Origin: Pseudomonadales bacterium
Lineage (GTDB): Bacteria > Pseudomonadota > Gammaproteobacteria > Pseudomonadales > Azotimanducaceae
DNA: 44,119 nucleotides
Assembly (NCBI GenBank): GCA_021295875.1
Contig: JAGWBN010000001.1
Coordinates: 1 to 44,119 of the forward strand
Direction: 5' to 3'
The notes below the pieces were generated by a model. The model was not told where the DNA came from. It did not search any database and worked only from the letters and a program-made list of their open reading frames with translations. The translations under genes and the position numbers were made by a program. Below, one piece after another: positions 1,472 through 44,119 of this stretch. Positions within the stretch are counted from its first letter, which is position 1; each line of letters starts with the position of its first letter.

Positions 1472-1475
<4 letters not shown>
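1..1475 (-). CDS. gatB: Aspartyl/glutamyl-tRNA amidotransferase subunit B (C-terminal end may be cut by window edge)
   Basis: Reverse frame from GTG at 1475 reads [34 protein letters not shown]...; near the window edge reads [30 protein letters not shown], typical GatB C-terminus. Start overlaps the gatA stop (GTGA). Confidence 0.95.
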
Positions 1476-2917
<1,442 letters not shown>

Positions 2918-2945
2918 CGAACGCTATCTTTGTTACACGGCGCCG

Positions 2946-3341
2946 TCAGGCACGCTTCCCGGGTCGCGCCCGGCGGGGAGCGTTCGCGGAGCGAATTCTC
3001 GGGGCGCCTGCGGACGCGACCGCGTCGACGACCCGAGGGACGAGATAGAGCCCGTCGCGCGCGGCGGGTGCCAGGCCCTGGAAGCGGTCCCGATCGATGT
3101 CTTCGGTGACCTGATCGGGACGTAGCGGCTGCACACCGTCCAGCGGATGGTCCAAGGGTTCGATCCCGTCGGTGTCGGCCGACCGCATGGCGTCGATGAG
3201 CGCGACGATCCTGTCCAGGTTGTCCTTGAGCATTTCCCGCTCGTCGGCTTCCAGCTTCAACGCGGCCAGGCGCATGAGTTTGTCGATCATGTCCGAGGCG
3301 GCGGCACGACGCTCGGTAGGGGTCGAATCGCTTTGCGGCAT
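2946..3341 (-). CDS. gatC: Aspartyl/glutamyl-tRNA amidotransferase subunit C with about 25-aa C-terminal extension
   Basis: 131 aa ORF directly upstream of gatA; ends ...LAPAARDGLYLVPRVVD (usual GatC end) followed by AVASAGAPRIRSANAPRRARPGKRA. Confidence 0.92.
   Translation of the reverse strand: MPQSDSTPTERRAAASDMIDKLMRLAALKLEADEREMLKDNLDRIVALIDAMRSADTDGIEPLDHPLDGVQPLRPDQVTEDIDRDRFQGLAPAARDGLYLVPRVVDAVASAGAPRIRSANAPRRARPGKRA
2983..3003. repeat. Second copy (inverted) of the 21-nt palindromic element core, inside gatC
   Basis: TTCGCGGAGCGAATTCTCGGG is the exact reverse complement of 43574-43594 CCCGAGAATTCGCTCCGCGAA. Confidence 0.85.
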
Positions 3342-14225: not shown

Positions 14226-16136
14226 CTAGCCCTCGGACCCGTGCAACCTAAGAATCTCTCCGCGCTTGGGCACGCGCGACAGGGCTTCGGCGATGTCGAC
14301 GCCGTCGAAGAGGTCGGCGAGGAGCCGGTCGATGGTGTCGTAGTCGAAGGCGTTGCAGGCGGACTCGAGGTTGGCCAGCGCCGGGCGAAGCTCGGACCAC
14401 GGCATCCGGGACTCCACGGCGCGGAGGATCTTGCGGTGTTCGGTGCCCATGGCGCCCTCGCCGACGAGCAGTTCCTCGGTGAGCTTCTCGCCGGGCAGCA
14501 GCCCGGTGAAGTGGATCTCGATGTCGCCCTTGGGATTGTGCTCGTCGCGCACGTTGTAGCCCTTCAAGCGGATCATCTTGCGGGCCAGTTCGTGGATCTT
14601 CACCGGCGCGCCCATGTCCAGCACGAAGACGTCGCCGCCGGTGGCCAGGCTGCCGGCCTGCAGCACGAGAGCCACGGCTTCCGGAATGGTCATGAAATAG
14701 CGCGTCACCTTGGGGTGGGTGACGGTGACGGGCCCGCCCTTGTCTATCTGCTCGAGAAACAGCGGCACCACGGAGCCGGACGAGTCGAGGACGTTGCCGC
14801 AGCGGACCATGCAGAACCGGGTGGAGTCGTTCTCGTCGTCGAGCGCCTGCAGAATCATCTCCGCGAACCGCTTGCTGGCACCGAGGACGTTTCGCGCCCG
14901 CACCGCCTTATCGGTGGAGATCAGGATGAAGTTGGACACCCCGGCCGCGATCGCCGCCTGCGCGGTGTGCAGGGTTGCCAGGGTGTTGTTCTCGATGACC
15001 TGGATGATGTTCTGCTGCGCCAGGCTGACGTGCTTGTAGGCGGCGGCGTGGTAGACGGTCTCGACGCCGTCGCGTCGCATGGTGCGTTCCACCAGGGCAC
15101 GGCTTACCAGCGATCCGAGGACCGTCACGATGGATGAACCGATGCCCTCGGCCACGGCGATGCCGCGCAGCTCACGCTCGATCTCGAACAGGGCGTACTC
15201 GGACTGGTCCAGGACGACGAGACGCGAGGGTCCGAGGCGCAGGATCTGGCGGCACAGCTCCGAACCGATGGAGCCTCCGGCGCCGGTCACGAGCACGCTG
15301 CGGTGGGTGACCGACTTGCGCAGCAGGTGGGGCAGGGGCGGTACCTCGTCGCGGCCGAGCAGATCGGCGATTTCGACGTCCCAGGAGGTGGCGGGCTCGG
15401 CACCGGCGACCACCGCCTGGATGTCGGGGATCAGGCGCACCCGCACCGGGTAGGGTTCGAGCTTCTCGATGATCCGTCTGCGGTCTTCGGCGGAGGCGGA
15501 GTCGACGGCGACGAGCACTTGGGCGATGCCGTGGCTCGCGACCAGCTCCGCCAGCGCGGTTACCGGAAACACCTCGAGCCCATGGACGATGCGGCCGATG
15601 GCCTGTTGGTTGTCGTCGATGAATGCCACCGGATGGTAGTTGCCGCTGCGCCGCATCTGCAGCACCAGGTGTGCACCGGCGTCGCCGGCGCCGTAGACGG
15701 CCACCGACTTGCGTACCAGGTTGGCCGGTGCCGCATCGGCGTAGGCGCGCACGAGGAAACGGGTGCCCGCCGTGCCGCAGAACGCCAGCAGCGCGAAGAT
15801 CACGGGTACCGACCGGGGGAAGTCCTCCAGTTGGACCATGTAGGCCAGCGCGGTCAGCGCCACGGCCGTCAGCAAGATGCCCTTGACCAGGGTCCAGATC
15901 ACCGCCGGACCCAGGTAGCGCATGACGTGGCGGTACAGACCCAGGTGGGCGAACACGGGTATGCACGCCAGGGTGACCGCGAAGCCGGGCCAGAAAGGCA
16001 CGACATCGAAGCTCCAGTGGCCGTGACGCAGCACCAGGGCGACCCACAGGGCACCCGGGATGATCATGCAGTCGCTCGCGATGGCCAGGGCGAGCTTCTG
16101 CGGGCGGGTCAGCCAGCGGATCGCTTCACGGTTCAT
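14226..16136 (-). CDS. Nucleoside-diphosphate sugar epimerase/dehydratase, CapD/WbpM/FlaA1-like polysaccharide biosynthesis protein
   Basis: MNREAIRWLTRPQKLALAIASDC...; N-terminal TM region, VLVTGAGGSIGSELCRQILRLGP Rossmann motif, ISTDKAVRARNVLGASKRFAEM. Confidence 0.9.
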   Translation of the reverse strand: MNREAIRWLTRPQKLALAIASDCMIIPGALWVALVLRHGHWSFDVVPFWPGFAVTLACIPVFAHLGLYRHVMRYLGPAVIWTLVKGILLTAVALTALAYMVQLEDFPRSVPVIFALLAFCGTAGTRFLVRAYADAAPANLVRKSVAVYGAGDAGAHLVLQMRRSGNYHPVAFIDDNQQAIGRIVHGLEVFPVTALAELVASHGIAQVLVAVDSASAEDRRRIIEKLEPYPVRVRLIPDIQAVVAGAEPATSWDVEIADLLGRDEVPPLPHLLRKSVTHRSVLVTGAGGSIGSELCRQILRLGPSRLVVLDQSEYALFEIERELRGIAVAEGIGSSIVTVLGSLVSRALVERTMRRDGVETVYHAAAYKHVSLAQQNIIQVIENNTLATLHTAQAAIAAGVSNFILISTDKAVRARNVLGASKRFAEMILQALDDENDSTRFCMVRCGNVLDSSGSVVPLFLEQIDKGGPVTVTHPKVTRYFMTIPEAVALVLQAGSLATGGDVFVLDMGAPVKIHELARKMIRLKGYNVRDEHNPKGDIEIHFTGLLPGEKLTEELLVGEGAMGTEHRKILRAVESRMPWSELRPALANLESACNAFDYDTIDRLLADLFDGVDIAEALSRVPKRGEILRLHGSEG

Positions 16137-17113
16137 TGGCGGTTCCGCCCGGCTGTGGCCGTTTCGGCAAGGCCGGCCCGATACGCCACGCACGCGGCGG
16201 CCACGGGCAGGCAGGCGGCGGCGAGCGCGGCGAAGCGCCACGCCGGCCAGGCGATGGCAACGCCGGCCATCGGCCACAGCCACGCCACGGTGTAGAGCCA
16301 GAAAACGCCGGCGGTCGCGCCGTGGCCGCGGCGGGCGCCGATAATCTGGTAGAGATGTGTGCGATGCGCTCGCGCGAACGCTTGGCGGGTGGCGACTCTC
16401 ATGAGCAGGGTGTAGCTGGCATCGAGCCAGAATGCTACCAACAGGATCAAACTCGCCACAAACGGCAATTCACCGCTCTGCCAGAGCCACAACGCGGTCA
16501 CGCCGGTCGCGAGACCAAGGAACAGCGACCCCACGTCGCCCATGAAGACCCGGGCGGGGGCCCAGTTGAAGCACAGGAAGCCCGCCGTCGCGGCGAGCAG
16601 GATCCAGGCGAACGACGCCGAGTCCTGCAGGTCGCCGAATATCAACGCGCCGCCCGCGTAGGCGATGGCCTGGGAAGCCGCCAGGCCGTCGGTGCCGTCC
16701 ATGAAGTTGTAGAGGTTGACCCACGCCGTCACCCCGACGATGGCGACGACGGCAAGGGCCAAAGGCAGATCGAAGAGCCAGAGCACGCTCGTCGCGCTTA
16801 AGGCCAGGTAGCAGCCGAGGCGGACGTCGCGCCGCAGGTCGCGGGCGTCGTCGGCGAGTCCGACAGCCGCGATCGCACCGCCACACGCGGCGAGTACCAC
16901 GGCGGGCGGGTAGTCTCTTGCCACGACCGCGAGCCACACGACGACGGGTACGACGAAGCCGATGCCGCCCGAGGTGGTCGTTGGCCGGTCGTGGGAACTG
17001 CGTTGGTTGGGCAGCGCGACGAGTCCGAACCGTGGACCCTCGCGCCACACCAGGGCGGTGATCGCCGCCGCCGCCACGAAGGCGGCGGCGGCTTCCATCG
17101 GCGTCCCGATCAA
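16133..17113 (-). CDS. Glycosyltransferase family 4, undecaprenyl-phosphate sugar-1-P transferase (WbpL/WecA-like)
   Basis: Multi-TM; SSHDRPTTTSGGIGFV, LADDARDLRRDVRL, VNLYNFMDGTDGLAASQA, FLCFNWAPARVFMGDVGSLFLG. Confidence 0.9.
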   Translation of the reverse strand: MIGTPMEAAAAFVAAAAITALVWREGPRFGLVALPNQRSSHDRPTTTSGGIGFVVPVVVWLAVVARDYPPAVVLAACGGAIAAVGLADDARDLRRDVRLGCYLALSATSVLWLFDLPLALAVVAIVGVTAWVNLYNFMDGTDGLAASQAIAYAGGALIFGDLQDSASFAWILLAATAGFLCFNWAPARVFMGDVGSLFLGLATGVTALWLWQSGELPFVASLILLVAFWLDASYTLLMRVATRQAFARAHRTHLYQIIGARRGHGATAGVFWLYTVAWLWPMAGVAIAWPAWRFAALAAACLPVAAACVAYRAGLAETATAGRNRQ

Positions 17114-17224
17114 GATGCGACCGCCTCCGGCTGCTGCCTCGGCTGCTGGCCCCGTGGTGCCATCGCTTCGCGCCGGAAAAACTCACGCAACGTCTCGGGG
17201 CGAAGGCTAAGCCGTCGCATCCCG

Positions 17225-17299: not shown

Positions 17300-17617
17300 T
17301 TATTCGCTCGCGGCTGGAGGCTTTTCAATCGGCGATTTACCGGGCGAGCCGCTGACGACGATCTTCGCCTCGTTCTTCTCAACGATTGATGGGCCGATTC
17401 CCTTGACGCGGGTCAGGTCCGAAGGCGAGTCGAAGCGGCCGTGGGTCTCGCGGTAGCGCACGATCGCCTCGGCCTTCTTCAGTCCGACGCCGTTCAGCAC
17501 CTGCGCGATGGTCTCCGCATCCGCAGTGTTGATGTTGACCTGTTCGACGCTCTCGGCGGCGGCGATTCCGGTCCAGGCCAGCGCCAGGATGGCGAGTAGG
17601 GTTCGTAGTGAGGGCAT
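17300..17617 (-). CDS. ComEA-like helix-hairpin-helix DNA-binding protein
   Basis: Signal-peptide-like MPSLRTLLAILALAWTGIAAA then VNINTADAETIAQVLNGVGLKKAEAIVRYRETHGRFDSPSDLTRVKGIG. Confidence 0.88.
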   Translation of the reverse strand: MPSLRTLLAILALAWTGIAAAESVEQVNINTADAETIAQVLNGVGLKKAEAIVRYRETHGRFDSPSDLTRVKGIGPSIVEKNEAKIVVSGSPGKSPIEKPPAASE

Positions 17618-17866
17618 GGCTAGTCTCCAGCTGGTTTTGGTTTGAGGACTGCGGAACATACCCCTTGGAACACGCCGGCCCTGTGCGACATCGCCCATGC
17701 TTGATGTACGAAATCCCATGAATTTCGCAATCTCCATCTCGCCGCGCGGGACCAGGGTCTCAGTCGGCCATCAGAGGAGCCGTTCGACAAGCCGCTGAAG
17801 AACTGTTCGACCGTCTCGTCGATGAGCGGATCCGGCGTCGCGCCGCCACGACGATGTACCTTCACC

Positions 17867-43540: not shown

Positions 43541-43554
43541 GTTCTAGCCCGTAC

Positions 43555-43599
43555 GCGACCGCTTTCGCGGTCGCCCGAGAATTCGCTCCGCGAATTCTC
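43555..43599. repeat. Double-hairpin palindromic element (two adjacent perfect inverted repeats)
   Basis: GCGACCGC-TTTC-GCGGTCGC (43555-43574) and GAGAATTCGC-TCC-GCGAATTCTC (43577-43599); core 43574-43594 recurs inverted at 2983-3003. Confidence 0.85.
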
Positions 43600-43673
43600 C
43601 CGGTGATTGGCGTCGATGATGCTGCCGAAGCAAGACCCAGCAACAGCGCCGAGCGACAAGGGAGGTTGGTTCA

Positions 43674-44119
43674 ATCAGAGAAGGTAGTCTCGAAGCGCCG
43701 AGGCGCGAACCCATCGACTGGCAGAGCGCCGACTTCCACGACCGCGACGCCGTGGATGCCGAGCTCGCCCGGGTGTTCGACGTCTGCCACGGGTGCCGCC
43801 GGTGCGTGAACCTCTGCGAGGCGTTTCCGACCCTGTTCGATCTCATCGACGAGTCGGACACGATGGAGGTGGACGGCGTTGACCCGGCGGCCTACGGCAA
43901 GGTCGTCGAACACTGCTTCCTGTGCGATCTCTGCGCCGAGACCAAGTGCCCCTACCTGCCGCCCCACGAGTGGCGCATCGACTTTCCCCACCTCATGCTC
44001 CGCGCCAAGGCCGCCCGCTTCAAGGAGCAGCGGCCGCGTTGGCGCGACCGCCTGATCACCAGCACCGACTCCGTATTCAGGACGCTGTCCGCGCCGGGTG
44101 TGCGCCAGCTCGCCAACGG
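43674..44119 (+). CDS. GlpC/heterodisulfide-reductase-like 4Fe-4S protein, truncated by window end; putative ATC start
   Basis: REGSLEAPRREPIDWQSADFHDRDAVDAELARVFDVCHGCRRCVNLCEAFPTLFDLIDESDTMEVDGVDPAAYGKVVEHCFLCDLCAETKCPYLPPHEWRIDFPHLMLRAKA; two Cys clusters. Confidence 0.85.
   Translation, partial: MREGSLEAPRREPIDWQSADFHDRDAVDAELARVFDVCHGCRRCVNLCEAFPTLFDLIDESDTMEVDGVDPAAYGKVVEHCFLCDLCAETKCPYLPPHEWRIDFPHLMLRAKAARFKEQRPRWRDRLITSTDSVFRTLSAPGVRQLAN

Follow-up and report, generated by a model that had tools for sequence, protein, structure and literature searches.

We found that gatC, an essential translation gene, takes its last codons from a decayed repeat in the stretch of DNA analyzed here (the window, 44,119 nucleotides of an Azotimanducaceae genome, G000). 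In the reading that we favor, with a probability of about 88%, the shared ancestor of G000 and its sister species G008 received a single insertion of a multi-hairpin repeat (~104 bp, specific to the genus) at the overlap between the gatC stop and the gatA start; the copy has since decayed, and the C-terminal tail of GatC that it encodes is likely a passenger. The sister species give a before-and-after view of a repeat becoming coding sequence of such a gene, with the insertion also resetting the start of the operon partner, gatA. Repeats are known to become protein, and the gatC case adds a well-dated example; the tail shows no sign yet of doing anything. Several other conserved proteins of the genus are tagged by the same repeat, and the question of whether repeat-born peptides gain function or are just tolerated is made testable outside Rickettsia, where they are best known.

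The C-terminal end of GatC in G000 reads ...LYLVPRVVD, followed by the tail AVASAGAPRIRSANAPRRARPGKRA. This tail is extra because the family models and the solved chains cease matching at residue 105-106: the TIGR00135 match aligns GatC residues 18-106 to model positions 5-93 of 93, and matching stops at residue 105-106 in five of five solved GatC chains. The claim of the first-pass annotation that GatC runs 25 aa past its usual end is thus borne out by the reading frame and by the model ending at residue 106. The same annotation had described an exact 21-nt inverted copy of positions 43574-43594 in the DNA of the tail, and this copy is indeed present on the minus strand; its equation with the codons for PRIRSAN holds for 20 of the 21 bases, the codons being offset by one base. 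Such a match had been called improbable by chance, in agreement with the ~4e-4 exact 21-mer pairs expected in window-sized DNA under equal base frequencies. Throughout the G000 genome, the 18-mer core with up to two mismatches has 28 matches, whereas the reversed pattern, used as a control, has 0.

The 21-mer belongs to a longer multi-hairpin element of ~104 bp, whose core it forms. The sequence flanking the core matches delineates one hairpin (GCGACCGC..GCGGTCGC) and then another (GAGAATTCGC..GCGAATTCTC), followed by an optional module of ~20 bp; the conserved 3' part of the element ends near TTTGTTCCATGGAAG. We built a 104-position profile of the element from 13 copies, leaving out the gatC copy. 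The consensus folds into four hairpins (z -3.7), and a search of the window against Rfam found no known RNA family. In the 3.14-Mb draft genome of G000, there are 58 element matches at E<=0.01, a few of which represent one copy read on both strands. Matches were found in each of the 16 genomes of the genus (at least one per genome, up to 79 in one congener), those in several of these genomes being few and weak, and a single weak match was found among 58 genomes sampled from other genera of the family. Judging from these matches, the element is genus-restricted within the genomes sampled. The window itself contains a second copy and a probable third (Table 1); the latter is flanked by minus-strand ORFs at 16133-17113 and 17300-17737 and lies upstream of the former.

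Table 1. Genes and element copies discussed in the text. Coordinates are those of the window unless a locus is given.
Feature	Position	Strand	Remarks
gatA	1472..2917	-	ATG at 2915-2917, within the element's final ten bases
Full-length, decayed copy of the palindromic element (~104 bp)	2911..3026	-	CM positions 1-104; from the D106 codon into gatA codon 3
gatC coding sequence, 131 aa including the 25-aa C-terminal tail	2946..3341	-	ORF; Pfam GatC E 2e-14; TIGR00135 E 2e-20
25-residue tail AVASAGAPRIRSANAPRRARPGKRA and TGA stop	2946..3023	-	Wholly within the element; not present in 12 congeners or in the inspected relatives from the family and order
Exact 21-nt element core CCCGAGAATTCGCTCCGCGAA	2983..3003	-	Identical to 43574-43594 (+)
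Probable third copy of the element, strongly decayed, intergenic	17121..17221	-	CM E 5e-4; nhmmer E 5e-6
Second copy of the element, well preserved (hairpins 1 and 2), intergenic after rubrerythrin gene	43552..43603	+	CM E 3.5e-16, match given as 43552-43680; nhmmer
RbfA ending in a tail of two element copies in tandem (DDATAKRSPRESAARIL twice)	L077:1081-1614 (G000 contig 161)		Tail missing from congeners
ABC transporter with in-frame element in the linker that joins the membrane and ATP-binding domains	L087:2-1186 (G000 contig 137)		Orthologues at 86-88% identity without the insert
Solute-binding protein whose C-terminal tail comprises about four element units in tandem, same frame	L081:1-1656 (G000 contig 262)

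At the gatC-gatA junction, the CM, which was likewise built without the gatC copy, matches with E 7.5e-8 genome-wide and 1.5e-9 across the 18 gatC loci searched (nhmmer E 3e-9), and the junction score is reached by none of 1000 dinucleotide shuffles and by none of 12,628 control windows. When the 21-mer core is removed, the right arm retains z 6.7, with 0/2000 shuffles reaching its score, and the left arm is weak (p 0.013). The profile covers the junction end to end, and the element contains the gatC tail and stop, the spacer and the start codon of gatA. The annotation was therefore right that the frame has been extended to just before gatA, and its proposal that the 3' end of gatC received a repeat, which became coding and extended the frame, also stands, and more firmly than put forward, because the element is present as a whole and is larger (~104 bp) than was proposed.

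GatC ends with VVE* in 12 congeners (VLE* in G012), which have neither the tail nor the element, and at VVE* or near it in the family and order relatives inspected. An ancestral tail is ruled out by these tail-less congeners and by the more distant relatives. Seven congener junctions compared with the element show no resemblance (z -0.4 to 2.2). The only other tail was found in the sister species G008, with a different sequence, DAAATGASANPPIAAARTGKRA. The first-pass annotation had held that its reading would fail if relatives lacking the repeat carried the same tail; G008, at whose gatC junction the 21-mer core was not found, seemingly is such a relative, but its junction is a decayed full-length element. 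Only one of the 18 gatC loci matches the element better; the G008 match runs from end to end (E 3e-4; z 6.8 against shuffles, p<1/2000), and the G008 gatA start lies in CATGGAAG, the usual terminus of the element; in a general nhmmer search, the match is weak (5.7 bits), with 2/1000 shuffles reaching its score. The GatA tree places G000 and G008 as sisters (support 100/99); therefore, a single insertion in their common ancestor explains both tailed junctions, and the comparison of the junctions locates it at the gatC-stop/gatA-start overlap. It should be noted that the draft genome of G000 is fragmentary (81% complete) and that G000 and G008 are separate genomes that agree. Decay has affected the central hairpin of both copies, with the 3' arm altered in G000 and the 5' arm missing in G008, and the two gatC copies fold no better than shuffled sequence (z ~0). 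The gap between gatC and gatA (2918-2945) is 28 nt in G000 and 27 nt in G008; in several congeners, the gatC stop overlaps the gatA start by 4 nt, ATGA. Upstream of the gatA ATG, GAGG occurs nine bases before it in G008, and the Shine-Dalgarno sequence of G000 is poor.

The old gatC stop has been lost, and the likely course of events can be outlined as follows. The element would have inserted at the 4-nt overlap (ATGA in congeners); because this insertion removed the ancestral stop, translation of gatC would continue for ~75 nt into the element, to a TGA. The insertion would also have parted gatC from gatA by 27-28 nt and moved the gatA start to the ATG at the far end of the element. During the subsequent decay, the folding advantage would have been lost, with the reading frame staying open; translation of the tail is predicted from this frame.

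The element also occurs inside other proteins. We screened 128 element copies for open frames, applying a codon-composition filter, and found five events in which the copy, on its forward strand, shares the frame of a coding-like ORF that lies upstream of it. Four of the five are supported by Pfam domains (RbfA, an ABC transporter, a solute-binding protein and a CBS-domain protein). All three forward frames of the consensus are open, and the five events share one frame, reading DATAxRSPRxxAxRxL, for which the chance expectation is (1/3)^5 = 0.004. The gatC copy begins in this preferred frame and is then shifted out of it by an indel. The tagging of unrelated proteins points to tolerance of the element rather than to a role specific to GatC.

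Several alternatives to the single insertion of an element were considered. Short matches are inflated in GC-rich DNA (68% GC here), but a chance similarity is hardly credible: shuffles and control windows never attained the junction score, the reversed pattern had no match, and, together with the congener junctions, these controls rule out a chance match for G000. That the tail came first, through ordinary loss of the stop codon, and that the element inserted or converged later, in G000 only, would explain why G008 has a tail without the 21-nt core. We consider this sequence of events very improbable, given that the full element aligns with the G008 junction at this very place, down to the terminal CATGGAAG supplying the gatA start, and that the right arm beyond the core also matches in G000.

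A different question is whether the tail, once acquired by insertion, has a selected role, for example in tRNA binding or in holding GatCAB to a synthetase. The tail frame is open in both species, with indels that keep the frame overall, the second codon positions of the tail are 90% identical between G000 and G008, and the tails are basic (pI 12.0 and 10.8) beside an acidic GatC body (pI 4.5); the open frame and the second positions make some constraint on the tail possible. Conversely, amino-acid identity between G000 and G008 is 93% in the body compared to 71% in the tail, the latter over 21 aligned codons and with further gaps in addition; the tail extends 26 residues past VV in G000 compared to 22 in G008, a difference of four codons; and G008 has three K+R compared to seven, so that the tail, described as basic in the first-pass annotation, is strongly basic only in G000. 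The tail (67%) and gatA (70%) have lower identity at four-fold sites than the gatC body (83%), and this pattern, from a comparison of only two sequences, fits weak constraint. The tagging of unrelated proteins by the element also weighs against a selected role, which we regard as unlikely, and the term "exapted", used in that annotation, is not borne out, the tail having diverged much faster than the body and differing in length between sisters. The solved structure 3al0_C is a GatC-linker-GluRS chain, which suggests that additions to the GatC end are compatible with the complex. Because the tail is poorly conserved, the hairpins of the element are decayed and additions at the GatC end can be accommodated, we prefer "passenger" to "exapted": most likely, the tail is tolerated as an exposed passenger at the C-terminus of GatC rather than selected as a functional part.

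The element parallels two known classes of repeats, although membership in either stays a likeness. Rickettsia palindromic elements (RPE) are 100-150 bp long, dispersed in one bacterial group and found in frame in unrelated genes, with a conserved peptide (PMC10969869; PMC3733652). By description rather than by sequence comparison, our element resembles them in being in frame within conserved proteins and missing from orthologues (GatC, the RbfA tail and the ABC-transporter linker), and in favoring, across five events, one reading frame that encodes a conserved peptide; it differs from RPE in belonging to one genus of another lineage, in being a string of separate hairpins and in its tendency to end with CATG. 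REPs (GTAG- and CGTC-tagged), including intragenic REPs, which provide a parallel case of repeats in proteins (PMC3733652), are also hairpin repeats close to gene ends. However, a REP is a single palindrome of 20-40 bp, compared to ~104 bp and four hairpins here, and the far end of our element supplies start codons, not stops. The first bases of the element, GACG, are the reverse complement of the CGTC tag, but the final G already belongs to the first stem. The RAYT transposase (PF01797) was not detected in the draft G000 genome (81% complete), and a REP moved by a RAYT of this genome was rejected; counted by presence only, flanking elements aside, PF01797 occurs in 10 of the 16 genus genomes. 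Because CGTC REPs are reported without a dedicated transposase (PMC3733652), its absence from G000 counts only against a GTAG-type REP. In its size, within the 70-300 bp of MITEs (such as ERIC, RUP and NEMIS), and in its insertion beside genes, the element recalls these repeats, but terminal inverted repeats, sought at the element ends, were not found, and a MITE with inverted ends was rejected.

In full-length copies, CATG tends to occur at both ends, and the two ends of one copy are more alike than in shuffles (p 0.008), rarely exactly, which is a weak sign of target duplication. Element ends coincide with apparent gene starts in 17 of 99 cases, compared to 4 of 100 CATG sites drawn at random from these loci (Fisher p 0.003), where a gene start was counted when the Pfam domain of the gene started no later than model position 7 (one control-site ORF was unscanned). 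This excess was spotted post hoc and may partly reflect selection because insertions within genes get purged; it agrees with the insertion at the gatA start codon. We tentatively suggest, as a possible though doubtful generalization, that the element is mobile and non-autonomous, with a preference for CATG at start codons and a single frame kept open, and that it systematically rewrites operon junctions. If so, the upstream protein would be lengthened and the downstream gene given a new leader and start codon, gatC-gatA being the clearest case. Our literature search found no report of repeats targeting CATG or start codons, within the terms tried. Start codons of real genes are found at element ends on either side of the element and on either strand: 3' ends at L063, L091, L146, L147 and L149 (PIN domain, sulfate permease, SDR, DUF427 and DUF4340), and 5' ends at L082, L151 and L120 (DUF255, SmpB and M50 peptidase).
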